Shown: positions 3,597 to 8,367 of the stretch, piece after piece | Position numbering within the stretch: the stretch's first letter is position 1 | How the letters are laid out: every line of letters begins with the position of its first letter | Assembly (NCBI GenBank): GCA_028280565.1 | Contig: JANQLQ010000259.1 | Span: forward strand, 1 to 53,768 | From: Fulvivirga sp. | Lineage (GTDB): Bacteria > Bacteroidota > Bacteroidia > Cytophagales > Cyclobacteriaceae | Length of the DNA: 53,768 bases | Direction: 5' to 3' | Position numbers and translations under genes: made by a program | Notes under the pieces: model-generated | Databases searched by the model: none | Told to the model about the DNA's origin: nothing | Seen by the model: only the letters and a program-made list of their open reading frames with translations

Positions 3597-6500
3597 CTAT
3601 GGCAATACCTCCTCAAAATCCACCCTTATTTCCTTGCTTTGGCTCGCCGTCAAATGTCGTGACCATTCTTCATACAAGTCTTTGAATACCGCATTATGAT
3701 CGTTCTTTTGCTTGACCCACTGGCTAAGCCTAGAAGTAAAACTCACCGGCCCCATGACCTCGCTAAGCTTGTAAAGGGCTATTGTCCCCTTGTTTTCTTC
3801 CAAGTAGTCCACGCCATCTGCATAAATTAAAGGAGGCTCATGGTTAGGTTCATTCCCACGTTCCTTTTCGTATACATTTTTTTTCTTTTCAAGCAGAACA
3901 TCCACAGCCTCTTCTCCATGACCTGATCTTACCACTTGCAGGGCCAGGGCCTCGGGAAGTGCGGTTTTCAGCATGTCTGCTCCTTGTACATTGGCCAAGT
4001 GTAAATTTTGGTTAAGCCAGTGGCGGATCAGCTGGGTAGCTACAGAAAATGTGATATAAGCCCGCTCTGCCACCCCGGTGGTATCTGCATACCAGCCTTC
4101 CTTTTCCGAGATCGCCACCACGTTAGGGAAAGCATAAAGCTCCTCTTGGTAAAAGGGGATCTCTATCAATCTTAACTCGCTGTACGGATAAGTTCCTAAC
4201 CGGGCATTAATAAAATTGATCGTTGCCTTTACAGACTTTTCGTACAAGGCTATATTGTAATGATGCTCTTTCTTAAAATGGATCTTCACCGGAAGGTCAT
4301 TAACCTTAAAAGATGAGCTTTCAAACATTGCCGAGGCAAAATACCATTGATAAGGGGATGGAGCCTCTAGCTCATACTCGTAAAGATTTCTCCCGTTTTC
4401 CTGCCAAGACCGGTTCAGCTTACCAGGAGCAATGACAAATTGACCTGGGGTAGTACTGACCGTAAACTTCCCCTTTAGCCATGTAGCGTCCGGCGCAAAA
4501 GCATCTTCAGCTAAGGCGACACCGTCTTCCAAAGAGGCCATCCTAGCGGTTAGTTTAGCCAAGTCATGTTCCTCTCGCTCCCTGTTTTTTTCCAGCTCAC
4601 GGGAAGTATTATAGCCTATCCTAGGGATGATGTCCCGGGCATCCATGAACAGCCCATTGAAGGCTAGGTCCGGCTGGGCATCGCCTTGGGTAAAGCCTAG
4701 GTATTGTTTGTTAGCTTTTATGAATAACGTGCCCGTTTCCATCGTATCCATGGCGATGGGAAGTACCAATTGATGAAGCTCATCATCTTTCCAAGACACC
4801 TCGATAAGCTCATTATTCCACCTTATCTCCTGGAAATCCATAAAATCCGGAAAGCCCAGGTAAAGGCTATCTATTTGTCCAGGGTTAAAATTCGCCAGGT
4901 GCATGTGGGCTTCGGCGGTAGCTTTTCTCTCGCTTGGTAAAAGATCTAGCGTTACGTCCAGCCTCGTTAGTTTAGGTTGCGGTTTGCTCTCGATCCATTT
5001 ATAGTTTTTTTCGTAGGCTGCATCTTTCAGCACCTCCGCCGATTCCAGTTCGAAGTTACCTTTGTCATTTACCTCGCGTACAATGAAGGATTGCAGAAGA
5101 AAAAAGGCAACCAGGCATATTACGGCCAGCCCTTTTCCTGGAAGGTTCAGTTGATCGGTTCTAAAAGCTAGTTTTTTAGTCAAATTCAGGGCAGTGCCAC
5201 GCTTCCAGAAATGGATCCCAAGCAGGACAAATACAGCCGCTAAGGCCAGCCACATAATGAAATACCAAAAAGAAGCAATGGACCAAATACCATAACCGTT
5301 CATTTCCGAAAAGTCTTCGATGCCGGGGGTGAGAGCATACCCGAAGCGCAGTTCCTCCATGATCCCCATGTCAAAGCTTACAACATTGAAAAAGTAGTAG
5401 CCTACGCTCAATATGTGGGTTAAAAAACGATTACCTGTTAAGCCTGCTATAAAGAAGACCATGGCAATATTAAGTATGTAGGTGAGCCATCCCCATTTAT
5501 ATCCCAGCACGTCGTCAGCGTATTGGACAAGGTTGATCTCCTGCCATCCCCCGGATAAAATTTGTGCTAAAACACCACAGCCGATGATCAATAGCGCTAG
5601 CAGCAGCGCCACACCACACATGGCCACGAATTTTGATAGCTGCGTTACCCAAATGGGAACAGGCAAAGCATCCGTGATCTGCCAAATGTTGGAGGTCCTA
5701 TCCTTAAAGAATAATTCACCGGCCCAGATCATCAGGAGCATCATAATAAAGAAGCCCATGGTAAGACGTACCAAGGTCATAGAGGAGGTCAAAGGCTGTT
5801 GTGGGCCTAGGTAGTAAGTAGCATTCCACATGACGTTTTGGAGGAAGAACATGAGCCCCAGGATACTAAGGATGATCTTGAAATTAACCGGCCGGACCAC
5901 GTTTTTGAACTCAAGGGTGGCCAATCTCCAGAATTTTTTGATGAATTCGCCCGTGGAAAACAAAAGACGGACGCCTGGGACATTTACCTTTTCCATGGCA
6001 TACGCTTGTTGCTGCTCCGCCTGTATTATTTGGTTTTTCTTTTTGCCAAGAGTGGTAGAAATAAACTCTTTAAAAGAAAATCTCCTGTAAGCCAGCAGGA
6101 ATACGAGTAAACTGCCGCCTATCCACACCAGGCGATTTATATAAAAAACAGGCCCTAAGGACAGGTAAGAATCATTCTTGGCGTCGGCAGGTAATGCATC
6201 CAATGTTTGGGCCGTATACACATAGGCAAATGGGTCAACAAGTTCATAGAAGGTCGCATCGGATGCGGTGCCACTGGTCGTTTCTGCCACTAAGAATATC
6301 ATGACAAATGCGAAAATGCTTAAATACCCGGCAGCCATACGCTTGAAAAACACTAATGAGGCAAAACAAACCATAGTCAGCATTAAGAGGTTCCCGGCTG
6401 TTAGCAAGAAGAAGCCATGGACCATCTGTCCCCAGGGAGTAGGGCCGAATTTGTCCGGTGCACCTATGCCTGAATAGGGTACGAGGGCCATACCTACAAA

Positions 6501-6854
6501 TATACCGGCGCCTATGATCACATTGACCAGGAACGCTGAAAGGAATCTCCCGAGAAAGAATTTCTTCTCATTGATCGGCAGCGTGTAAAATATCCCAGCG
6601 GATTTGAATTGAATATCTTTATAGAGCACGGTACCTGTTATGATCGCGATCACGATGATCAACAGCATCCCTCCACCGGCAAAATTTTTGTAAAAAAGTG
6701 CCGCCCCGTTCATCAGTGTAGCATCATTCACATAGTATTCGTAGCTCCCTTGGGTATACCAGATCCCCTGGAAAACCAACATGAGAAAGAATAACAAGGT
6801 CATGGGTTGCTTGAAGCGGGATCTAAGCTCGAATTTTAGGATGTTAGAGATCAT
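3597..6854 (-). CDS. ABC-2 permease fused to a degenerate M1-peptidase-like domain
   Basis: 1085 residues. The first ~590 hold two ABC-2-type permease blocks: a cytoplasmic start (MISNILKFELRSRFKQP), then sets of six or so hydrophobic helices, with a second block starting near residue 310. After the last helix (~585-600) comes a periplasmic domain related to the M1 aminopeptidase fold found fused to permeases in Bacteroidota. The zinc site looks lost: where HExxH-type residues are expected (~residue 936) the sequence is SVATQLIRHWLNQNL, and the downstream helix reads EALALQ rather than the usual E-containing ESLAEY type. The partner ATPase is the next gene upstream in transcription (7468-8367), but a foreign-looking cassette lies between them. 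Substrate unknown. Confidence 0.85.
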   Translation of the reverse strand: MISNILKFELRSRFKQPMTLLFFLMLVFQGIWYTQGSYEYYVNDATLMNGAALFYKNFAGGGMLLIIVIAIITGTVLYKDIQFKSAGIFYTLPINEKKFFLGRFLSAFLVNVIIGAGIFVGMALVPYSGIGAPDKFGPTPWGQMVHGFFLLTAGNLLMLTMVCFASLVFFKRMAAGYLSIFAFVMIFLVAETTSGTASDATFYELVDPFAYVYTAQTLDALPADAKNDSYLSLGPVFYINRLVWIGGSLLVFLLAYRRFSFKEFISTTLGKKKNQIIQAEQQQAYAMEKVNVPGVRLLFSTGEFIKKFWRLATLEFKNVVRPVNFKIILSILGLMFFLQNVMWNATYYLGPQQPLTSSMTLVRLTMGFFIMMLLMIWAGELFFKDRTSNIWQITDALPVPIWVTQLSKFVAMCGVALLLALLIIGCGVLAQILSGGWQEINLVQYADDVLGYKWGWLTYILNIAMVFFIAGLTGNRFLTHILSVGYYFFNVVSFDMGIMEELRFGYALTPGIEDFSEMNGYGIWSIASFWYFIMWLALAAVFVLLGIHFWKRGTALNLTKKLAFRTDQLNLPGKGLAVICLVAFFLLQSFIVREVNDKGNFELESAEVLKDAAYEKNYKWIESKPQPKLTRLDVTLDLLPSERKATAEAHMHLANFNPGQIDSLYLGFPDFMDFQEIRWNNELIEVSWKDDELHQLVLPIAMDTMETGTLFIKANKQYLGFTQGDAQPDLAFNGLFMDARDIIPRIGYNTSRELEKNREREEHDLAKLTARMASLEDGVALAEDAFAPDATWLKGKFTVSTTPGQFVIAPGKLNRSWQENGRNLYEYELEAPSPYQWYFASAMFESSSFKVNDLPVKIHFKKEHHYNIALYEKSVKATINFINARLGTYPYSELRLIEIPFYQEELYAFPNVVAISEKEGWYADTTGVAERAYITFSVATQLIRHWLNQNLHLANVQGADMLKTALPEALALQVVRSGHGEEAVDVLLEKKKNVYEKERGNEPNHEPPLIYADGVDYLEENKGTIALYKLSEVMGPVSFTSRLSQWVKQKNDHNAVFKDLYEEWSRHLTASQSKEIRVDFEEVLP

Positions 6855-6880
6855 ATCTTTTTATTTCTTTATAATTTCCT

Positions 6881-6942
6881 ACTGTGTCCTATGTGCCTAT
6901 GTGGTAAAAAGGCTCACCACATAGGTACATAGGGCACATAGT
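6881..6942. repeat. Long hairpin flanking the GxxExxY gene, left copy
   Basis: Left arm 6881-6905 and right arm 6916-6940 are inverted repeats of ~25 bp with few mismatches, built on CTATGTG/CACATAG units around a 10-nt loop AAAAAGGCTC. The core TATGTGGTAAAAAGGCT recurs in the same orientation at 7391-7462 on the other side of the gene. Confidence 0.85.
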
Positions 6943-6970
6943 GTTTTTTGTGTTGTGCCGTGTATATTTG

Positions 6971-7381
6971 ATGATGACCCAAGCAGATATCAACAAGCAT
7001 ACGTATGACATTATTAATGTAGCCATCGAAGTACATAAGAGTCTTGGCCCGGGGTTACTTGAAAGTGTGTACCATAGGTGCATGGAGCAGGAAATGAAGC
7101 TTCGAAAGCTCTCTTTTAAAAGTGAATTGATCGTGCCGATTGAGTACAAAGGACTTGAACTGGATGCTAATCTTAGGTGCGATTTTCTATACGCGAATTG
7201 CATCGTCGTGGAACTTAAGTCAGTTGATGCTATAGCCCCTGTCTTCCAAGCCCAATTGATTACGTATATGAAATTGCTCCGTGTACCAAAAGGCATACTT
7301 ATCAATTTTAATGTCACTAATATTTTCAGGGAAGGACAGCAAACATTTGTAAATGAACTGTTCCGTGACCTCCCTGCTTAG
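6971..7381 (+). CDS. GxxExxY protein, PD-(D/E)XK nuclease-like
   Basis: 136 residues from the ATG at 6971 (a second ATG follows at 6974; the longer frame from 6941 would start inside the hairpin arm, so it is disfavoured). The motif naming the family is visible as GLLESVY near residue 28. Further on, LRCDFLY followed by VVELKS gives the D...ExK arrangement of the PD-(D/E)XK nuclease fold, then QAQLITYMKLL and a GILINFN strand. The family is widespread and of unknown function. The gene is alone, opposite in strand to the ABC transporter genes on both sides, and exactly bracketed by two copies of one hairpin repeat, which suggests a mobile cassette. TATATTTG at 6963-6970 matches a -7 box but abuts the start codon, so its role is unclear. 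Confidence 0.85.
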   Translation: MMTQADINKHTYDIINVAIEVHKSLGPGLLESVYHRCMEQEMKLRKLSFKSELIVPIEYKGLELDANLRCDFLYANCIVVELKSVDAIAPVFQAQLITYMKLLRVPKGILINFNVTNIFREGQQTFVNELFRDLPA

Positions 7382-7390
7382 TTTCCTCAC

Positions 7391-7462
7391 ACTATCCTAT
7401 GTGTCCTATGTGCTTATGTGGTAAAAAGGCTAACCACATAGGCACATAGAGCCACATAGAGT
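7391..7462. repeat. Long hairpin flanking the GxxExxY gene, right copy
   Basis: Left arm up to 7422 and right arm from 7433 pair over ~27 bp (TATGTGGT/ACCACATA core), loop AAAAAGGCTA. It is nearly identical to the left copy in the core and in the same orientation, and it starts about 10 bp after the gene's stop codon. Confidence 0.85.
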
Positions 7463-7467
7463 CCCTA

Positions 7468-8367
7468 TTATGCCATTACAGTGGCGGCCAGGTTTGATCT
7501 TTCATTGTACAATACATTGAAATAAGCATCTTCCAGCGAGGGTGCCTTTGACCAAAAATTACCATCCGGAAGGTCGTCCGCTACTACGGTGATCATGAGC
7601 TTACCCAAATGGAAACGGCTGGAAATAACGTTCATGGTATCCTCATAATCCTGCAGCTCGTGTTTTTCTATTTGCTTTTCCCATACCCTCTCGTTGAGCC
7701 CAGCTTCTATTTCACCGGGTTTACCGGTCAAAAGCACTTCGCCTTTCCCGATAATGGCCATCTGGTTACAAAGAGTGCTCACATCCTCCACGATATGCGT
7801 TGAGAGGATGACCACCGTATTTTCACCGATCTCGGAAAGCAGGTTATAAAACCGGTTGCGTTCCATGGGGTCTAATCCCGCCGTAGGCTCATCTACAATA
7901 ATTAATCTCGGGTTGCCTAACAGGGCCTGGGCTATGCCAAAACGCTGCTTCATCCCCCCGGAATACCCTCCTAGTTTTTTGCTGCGCGCCTCCCAAAGGT
8001 TTACCTTTTTGATGATGGCTTCCACCTGGTCCTTACGTTCGCCGGCATGGGTAATTCCTTTCATGTCAGCAATATGAGTAAGAAGCTCCATAGCTGTCGC
8101 CGTTGGGTAAACACCAAACTCCTGGGGTAGATATCCTAATACCTCCCTGAGCTTCCCGGGCTCCTTGGCCACATCAATGCCATCAAAGCGGATCGTGCCA
8201 CTGTCTGCGTCTTGGAGTGTGGCCACGGTACGCATCAAGGTAGACTTTCCCGCGCCATTTTGCCCCAGTAGCCCAAACATCCCTGTCTTGATGGTCAAGC
8301 TTACATCCTTTAGGGCCTGTACCCCGTTGGAATACGTTTTATTTAAGTTCTCGATTTCCAGTATCAT
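7468..8367 (-). CDS. ABC transporter ATP-binding protein
   Basis: 299 residues. Walker A is GQNGAGKST near residue 36-44, the Q-loop region is LGYLPQEFGVY, the ABC signature is YSGGMKQR near 135, and Walker B is LIIVDEPTAGLDP followed by a switch His in VILSTHIVED. The C-terminal ~80 residues match the extension usual in ABC-2 exporter ATPases. It should power the permease-peptidase fusion encoded at 3597-6854; the two genes would normally be adjacent, but 613 bp with two hairpins and a reversed gene separate them here. Confidence 0.92.
   Translation of the reverse strand: MILEIENLNKTYSNGVQALKDVSLTIKTGMFGLLGQNGAGKSTLMRTVATLQDADSGTIRFDGIDVAKEPGKLREVLGYLPQEFGVYPTATAMELLTHIADMKGITHAGERKDQVEAIIKKVNLWEARSKKLGGYSGGMKQRFGIAQALLGNPRLIIVDEPTAGLDPMERNRFYNLLSEIGENTVVILSTHIVEDVSTLCNQMAIIGKGEVLLTGKPGEIEAGLNERVWEKQIEKHELQDYEDTMNVISSRFHLGKLMITVVADDLPDGNFWSKAPSLEDAYFNVLYNERSNLAATVMA

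Follow-up and report, generated by a model that had tools for sequence, protein, structure and literature searches.

Palindromic unit arrays often bracket GxxExxY nuclease-family genes and vary with the clade of the protein

In a 53,768-nucleotide stretch of DNA from Fulvivirga sp. (the window), two co-oriented, neighbouring ABC transporter genes are separated by a cassette consisting of one small gene between two long hairpins, and the question raised by this locus is what kind of element such a block represents and whether gene and hairpins belong together. The features concerned are the following.

3597..6854, minus strand: long gene of 1085 aa, taken as a permease, the downstream neighbour
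6855..7467, no strand: whole intergenic stretch between the ABC genes, 613 bp
6883..6941, no strand: left palindromic array, stem 6883-6905 / 6916-6938, with plus-strand units CACATAG at 6918-6924, TACATAG at 6926-6932 and CACATAG at 6935-6941
6974..7381, plus strand: GxxExxY (PDDEXK_3) gene, intact, 135 aa, with the ATG at 6974 taken as start
7397..7459, no strand: right palindromic array, a direct repeat of the left array, with plus-strand units CACATAG at 7435-7441, 7443-7449 and 7453-7459
7468..8367, minus strand: ABC transporter ATP-binding gene, the upstream neighbour

The hairpin-gene-hairpin arrangement is real and exceeds chance. Co-oriented direct repeats of 53 nt, 92% identical, lie at 6883-6935 and 7400-7452, and both contain the core TATGTGGTAAAAAGGCT and are palindromic, with single-stranded DNA folding energies of -21.3 (left) and -19.6 (right) kcal/mol (z = -7.0 and -5.9; 0 of 200 shuffles folded equally well for either copy). 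The arms are arrays of about three copies each of a 7-nt unit, CACATAG, the opposite array of the left palindrome being read on the minus strand. Between the hairpins there is one gene-like ORF only, listed with a longer start (GTG at 6941), and the preliminary description of matching-core hairpins in the same orientation around a single gene is thus accurate. The hairpin pattern occurs twice in the 9.05-Mb genome, both times at this cassette. Neither GTAG nor CGTC tags were found inside either palindrome on either strand; a single GTAG (minus strand, 6879-6882) adjoins the left palindrome, and the right palindrome has no adjoining GTAG. A tRNA search of the window returned none.

Profile searches confirmed the earlier identification of the gene product as PD-(D/E)XK-like and GxxExxY: the window protein scored 130.1 bits against TIGR04256 GxxExxY (cut-off 35) and 126.5 bits against PF13366 PDDEXK_3, making it a clear member of the family, and these searches matched only GxxExxY/PDDEXK_3 and no transposase domain. 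Invariant residues in a 30-row alignment include G25, G27, E30, Y33, D70, E80, K82 and Y98, with Q94 nearly so; the D and E-x-K of the PD-(D/E)XK superfamily are thereby present (D70, E80, K82), accompanied at Q94-Y98 by what we take to be a QxxxY motif. Cysteine is absent from the invariant columns of this alignment, C36 alone being nearly invariant. An AlphaFold model (pLDDT 95.6, pTM 0.89) best matched PDB entry 4ic1 (SSO0001, named a Cas4; E 5e-4, TM 0.51) and, second, lambda exonuclease (E 0.03), while the PADLOC Cas4 profile matched weakly (E 6e-4) and a search by sequence for a solved relative gave a single match at E = 1. Because of the invariant residues, the matches of the model to 4ic1 and lambda exonuclease and the weak Cas4 profile match, we propose that the GxxExxY protein is a minimal Cas4/RecB-like PD-(D/E)XK nuclease. 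It resembles the Cas4 and lambda-exonuclease nucleases in its closest solved folds, in the weak profile match and in E-x-K with the presumed QxxxY. It differs from Cas4, in which conserved cysteines hold an iron-sulfur cluster and for which a four-cysteine cluster has been described (PMC4176176), in having no set of four conserved cysteines in its 135 aa.

GxxExxY matches were present in 77 of 118 sampled genomes of the window's family, with a maximum of 15 in one genome (G128), and the window's own genome has five PF13366 places, one of them short and with an internal stop. Cargo of phages or plasmids was rejected as an account of the gene, the window protein having matched 0 of 50,697 phage records, 7 of 72,556 plasmid records and no PHROG. 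A literature search, incomplete in coverage, yielded no tested function for GxxExxY proteins; published mentions of GxxExxY were incidental, and TIGR04256 had no match.

Relatives of the window provide junctions at which the ABC genes adjoin without a cassette, as the preliminary description had anticipated for a mobile block. The 1085-aa gene had no Pfam or NCBIfam match at E 0.001 and is presumably a permease, because it has hydrophobic segments and adjoins the ATPase gene. The gap between ATPase and permease genes is 613 bp in the window vs 11 bp at the corresponding junction of G023, which belongs to another genus of the family and whose ATPase and permease N-terminus are 83% and 78% identical to those of the window. 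In same-type operons the matching junction measures 1 bp in G010 and 2 bp in G003; these operons may be paralogous to the window's, since the adjoining permease is just 56-57% identical, and in G003 a nearer permease (72%) lies further along. In G013 the matching junction holds an unrelated 281-aa ORF. G010 carries a related element at another place (C33), with a protein in the window's clade (support 99); outside the element, neither the flanks of this copy nor those of another locus, L064, matched anything in the window's first 20 kb, and a search of the 14 remaining genomes of its genus did not recover the flanks of the G010 copy. No target-site duplication was made out at the compared junctions, where relatives are too diverged or flanks are A/T-rich.

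The association of hairpins with GxxExxY genes extends well beyond the window. Neither outcome that the preliminary description had named as refuting its proposal, hairpins absent from GxxExxY genes elsewhere or a gene constantly present at this spot in syntenic genomes, was observed. GxxExxY loci were drawn from the window's genome and family, from a named collection of genomes and from plasmid records, and the flank test, which superseded an earlier one of 67 rows, comprised 132 rows with 250 bp on each side, corresponding to 127 loci (three broken genes counted twice, two loci with two genes each; some rows are close orthologues). In 91 of the 132 rows (90 of 127 with each locus taken once) the best repeat shared from flank to flank scored above 15; among controls this held for 8 of 258 displaced pairs with equal geometry and for 31 of 787 cross-locus flank pairs. 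Above 25, the counts were 48 rows, 3 displaced pairs and 6 cross-locus pairs. The remaining 41 rows scored 15 or less, and two of the 258 control pairs scored above 100. In most of the alignments ACC or CC is followed by about three similar units of 7-8 nt, iterated at 8-11 bp (roughly one helical turn) and often mirrored into a hairpin. Units included CACATAG (window), CATATAAG, CATTAAG, CGCAGAG, CACAGAG, CACAGATT and CACGAATT. The preliminary description had guessed that the window repeat varies a sequence widespread near such genes; repeats are indeed common there, but they form a set of units matched to protein clade, not one sequence. A consensus triplet detector, limited to spacings of 8-12, found unit triplets on both flanks in 39 of 132 rows and on either flank in 65 of 132; control windows had them in 26 of 522 cases, and shuffled upstream flanks in 0 of 132. 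It replaced a generic three-unit detector that was too loose (110 of 264 flanks vs 70 of 522 controls at score 18).

Arrays on both sides of the gene were seen in five phyla, namely Bacteroidota, Chlorobiota (L065), Delongbacteria (L074), Gemmatimonadota (L155, gene frame broken) and, by eye, Verrucomicrobiota (L161), those of L065, L074 and L155 scoring above 15. Two further phyla show a weaker form: in Spirochaetota, L158 has one inverted unit (score 11), and in Pseudomonadota, Sphingomonas parapaucimobilis L157 has a left array only (score 15.0), its GxxExxY gene lying between fabD and fabG of the fatty-acid operon. Four orthologues in Aquiflexum/Cognataquiflexum have no repeat common to both flanks and retain a left-side array. 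L003, a copy in the window's own genome, is without CRYNNAK triplets, and its flanks share a different repeat. Both L003 and L058, from a protein clade without the usual units, have inverted GGATT-rich flanks, which may represent an additional class of unit.

A second small multi-copy family with flank-shared repeats was observed in the window's family. Genes of the TIGR02436 four-helix-bundle family (L302-L331) had flank repeats scoring above 15 at 7 of 30 loci vs 0 of 56 control pairs, with units that differ (e.g. L304, L305, L329); a doubtful ORF was picked in about five of the 30 loci.

The class of the unit follows the clade of the protein. In a tree of 162 proteins (116 rows with a unit class, 46 without), unit class changes 17 times over the 116 labelled rows, and with all groups including the unlabelled rows there are 46 changes, where shuffling gives 101 on average. 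In 88 of 103 cases a protein has the same unit as the protein closest to it, at a distance above 0.3, among other genomes (13 labelled Flavobacterium-site orthologues left out, L079 kept, duplicate genome entries merged), and permuting units among copies of the same genome gave a mean of 56.5 and a maximum of 77, with 0 of 5000 permutations reaching 88. Host relatedness does not explain the match between unit and protein, because 18 of 24 genomes with at least two labelled copies carry differing units and this agreement holds across genomes. The unit classes were defined after the alignments had been viewed; a class-free 7-mer test (64 loci, 25 multi-copy genomes) gives weaker agreement, with the observed value reached in 25 of 2000 permutations. 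The co-variation suggests that each unit is recognised by its cognate protein, and it is the one observation that points to a nuclease acting on the hairpins, as had been proposed for the window.

An ordinary autonomous transposon, with the arrays as its terminal repeats and the nuclease moving the entire block by cut-and-paste inside one genome, would fit the frequent arrays at both ends with ACC outward, as in terminal inverted repeats, and the up to 15 matches in G128. Same-genome copies are, however, mostly far apart: among the matches listed, a distance below 1.2 changes per column was found for 1 of 50 labelled pairs from one genome, and for 3 of 86 when every same-genome pair is counted, and 12 of the 50 labelled pairs have a common unit. 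Together with the missing transposase domain, and with no target duplication made out where relatives had diverged or flanks were A/T-rich, this makes a transposon improbable. Within-genome self-copying of the GxxExxY gene looks rare among the copies compared. The proposal that the block moves or is copied as a unit is accordingly borne out in part: cassette-free junctions exist, but the gene does not look like a frequent copier within genomes (the single close pair in 50 among the matches listed), and what has multiplied in several genomes is mostly gene-less arrays.

Empty, solo and full states are found at one orthologous site in Flavobacterium, between genes that we take to encode SufE and a DUF59/SufT protein. 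A 2.4-kb query comprising the F. hiemivividum element and its flanks matched 120 of 121 genomes of the genus, and 70 junctions were read (30 loci of that search and 40 fetched from the match list, not a random draw), with the gene in 20, empty in 13 (15 bp or less), with a gene-less array in 22 and in other states in 15. The gene-less arrays fall into three unit families (10 CACGAATT, 7 CATTAAG and 5 CATATAAG-type). On a tree of the flanks (606 columns, few firm branches) the gene label changes 19 times for 20 rows (shuffled mean 17.7), and firm branches force at least 8 of these changes; the presence of the gene is therefore scattered, and patchy between related species, as read from this poorly resolved tree. 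Four solo-array genomes (G165, G252, G214 and G244) were checked. In G165 and G252 the unit of the solo array recurs at a GxxExxY gene in another place (L282 and L293, respectively); G214, whose solo array is of the CATTAAG type, has no GxxExxY gene with a matching unit.

Ten orthologous solo hairpins show drift in the left arm with no compensation visible by eye in the right arm, so that the folded form is not visibly under selection. This bears on the reading of the hairpins as elements that terminate transcription or affect mRNA stability, placed about a gene gained by horizontal transfer, a reading that strong hairpins in intergenic DNA would otherwise suit. It is very improbable given the apparently uncompensated changes, the variation of units by protein clade, the finding of 0 terminator-like sites at 6700-7700 (0.6 in shuffles) and the lack of any Rfam match above the gathering score (12 of 13 matches with E up to 1 were to microRNA families).

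At three junctions (L203, L223 and L231) a CATTAAG hairpin lies beside the apparent right end of an array of different type, as might result from the replacement of most of an older element by another. Right-edge similarity in the closest pairs was 0.63 for different and 0.72 for the same type, with 0.46-0.47 in distant pairs and a weaker signal at the left edge; this is only suggestive of in-place swapping of element types with common outer edges, because the edges are A-rich and may belong to the start of the next gene. Junctions might instead be mere insertion hot spots that collect unrelated repeats and small genes, the association with GxxExxY being positional. Other genes do occupy such junctions (L029, and at the Flavobacterium site an apparent other small gene in L204, L242, L243 and L247), and TIGR02436 genes have flanking repeats of their own. 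We nevertheless give this account little credence, as repeats are common to both flanks of one gene and the match of unit and protein holds between genomes with the Flavobacterium-site orthologues except L079 left out, largely at non-orthologous sites.

Arrays are also dispersed without the gene. Each of 30 Flavobacterium genomes has 2-95 CATATAAG arrays, vs 0-3 for the reversed pattern, and 2-9 GxxExxY matches; in some of them arrays do not outnumber genes. Of the 84 arrays of Flavobacterium G176, 62 form 31 inward-facing pairs, 42-329 bp apart, with 0 outward pairs, and 3 lie within 700 bp of a GxxExxY gene (4 of its 5 genes tested). Dispersal of the window's CACATAG type was seen in relatives and not in its own genome: arrays of this type occur in 18 of 118 genomes of the family (control matches, 5 in all), and GxxExxY is present in 16 of these 18 vs 61 of the 100 others, a comparison that takes the array draw and the gene draw of 118 genomes as the same. 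G079 and G140 have arrays and no GxxExxY match. Closely spaced CACATAG arrays form clusters of 17 at G088:C4:155917-157890 and of 14 at G142:C11:263493-264316, with no GxxExxY gene inside among the matches listed.

The window's own genome has 36 matches to an ACCRCNRAG-type pattern vs 2 for the control, two of the 36 adjoining a GxxExxY copy (L005), and 17 of 20 places fetched share a gene-less repeat with seven or more others. This repeat (L332-L347 and L350, on many contigs) is about 100-210 bp long and about 72-96% identical between copies, with the ACCRCNRAG array inside; it may break the assembly, since for some copies a contig end is no more than about 130 bp away.

Such dispersal also agrees with spread of the hairpins by host recombination, slippage or another enzyme, with the nuclease as a passenger, or as a caretaker that keeps its own palindromes trimmed or in check, e.g. 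through cleavage of hairpins that have been extruded. Gene-less arrays exceed genes in several genomes, some genomes with arrays have no gene match, and a Cas4-like fold suits end processing as well as site-specific cutting. The within-genome match of unit class to protein clade ties each protein to its own repeat, however, and we consider a passenger or caretaker role rather unlikely.

RAYTs are HUH tyrosine transposases associated with GTAG-tagged REPs. Two reports describe, in REP/REPIN-RAYT systems, a low-copy gene flanked by palindromes that are also dispersed gene-less, often as inverted pairs, with each gene distinctive in genomes that have more than one (PMC3116915, PMC3733652), and RAYTs as single, distinctive copies (PMC3116915). 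Like these REPtrons, the GxxExxY gene is bracketed by palindromes that also lie dispersed without the gene. Unlike them, the enzyme is a PD-(D/E)XK nuclease with a Cas4-like fold and no HUH/Y1 tyrosine transposase match, the palindromes are arrays built from about three units of 7-8 nt in which a GTAG tag is not consistently present, and the presence of the gene is patchy between related species. The GxxExxY system is not a member of the REPIN/RAYT group, because it lacks the defining enzyme and tag. No report of cognate flanking arrays at GxxExxY genes was found in a literature search of incomplete coverage. In its proposed logic, which combines a small nuclease gene with repeats that look like targets and with patchy occurrence at an orthologous site, the system would also resemble what we take to be the habit of free-standing homing endonucleases, with the difference that the GxxExxY gene is bracketed by its repeats and does not interrupt one site.

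We favour, as probable, a REPIN/RAYT-like selfish-repeat system built on an unrelated Cas4-like PD-(D/E)XK nuclease as the best reading of the bracketing, the unit-protein co-variation, the gene-less dispersal and the states of the Flavobacterium site; recognition, cutting and repair-mediated spread are the inferred parts of this reading. The hairpin-gene-hairpin block would be the master copy of a chromosomal system, whose nuclease would recognise a short unit of its own in arrays of about three, which are often mirrored to form a palindrome, and would nick or cut such an array or a hairpin extruded from it. Repair from another copy could then spread or replace palindromes at intergenic junctions and might sometimes carry the gene along in a homing-like manner.

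More tentatively, and at somewhat less than even likelihood, GxxExxY nucleases and their cognate arrays may constitute a second, independently evolved REP-type system, in which a Cas4-like nuclease spreads and replaces palindromes by cutting and array families therefore compete for the same intergenic sites. A cognate DNA repeat for each protein clade provides a concrete candidate substrate for GxxExxY proteins. If the nuclease drives the repeats, this would be a selfish palindrome system on an enzyme unrelated to RAYTs, and it would account for a class of intergenic hairpins in these bacteria.
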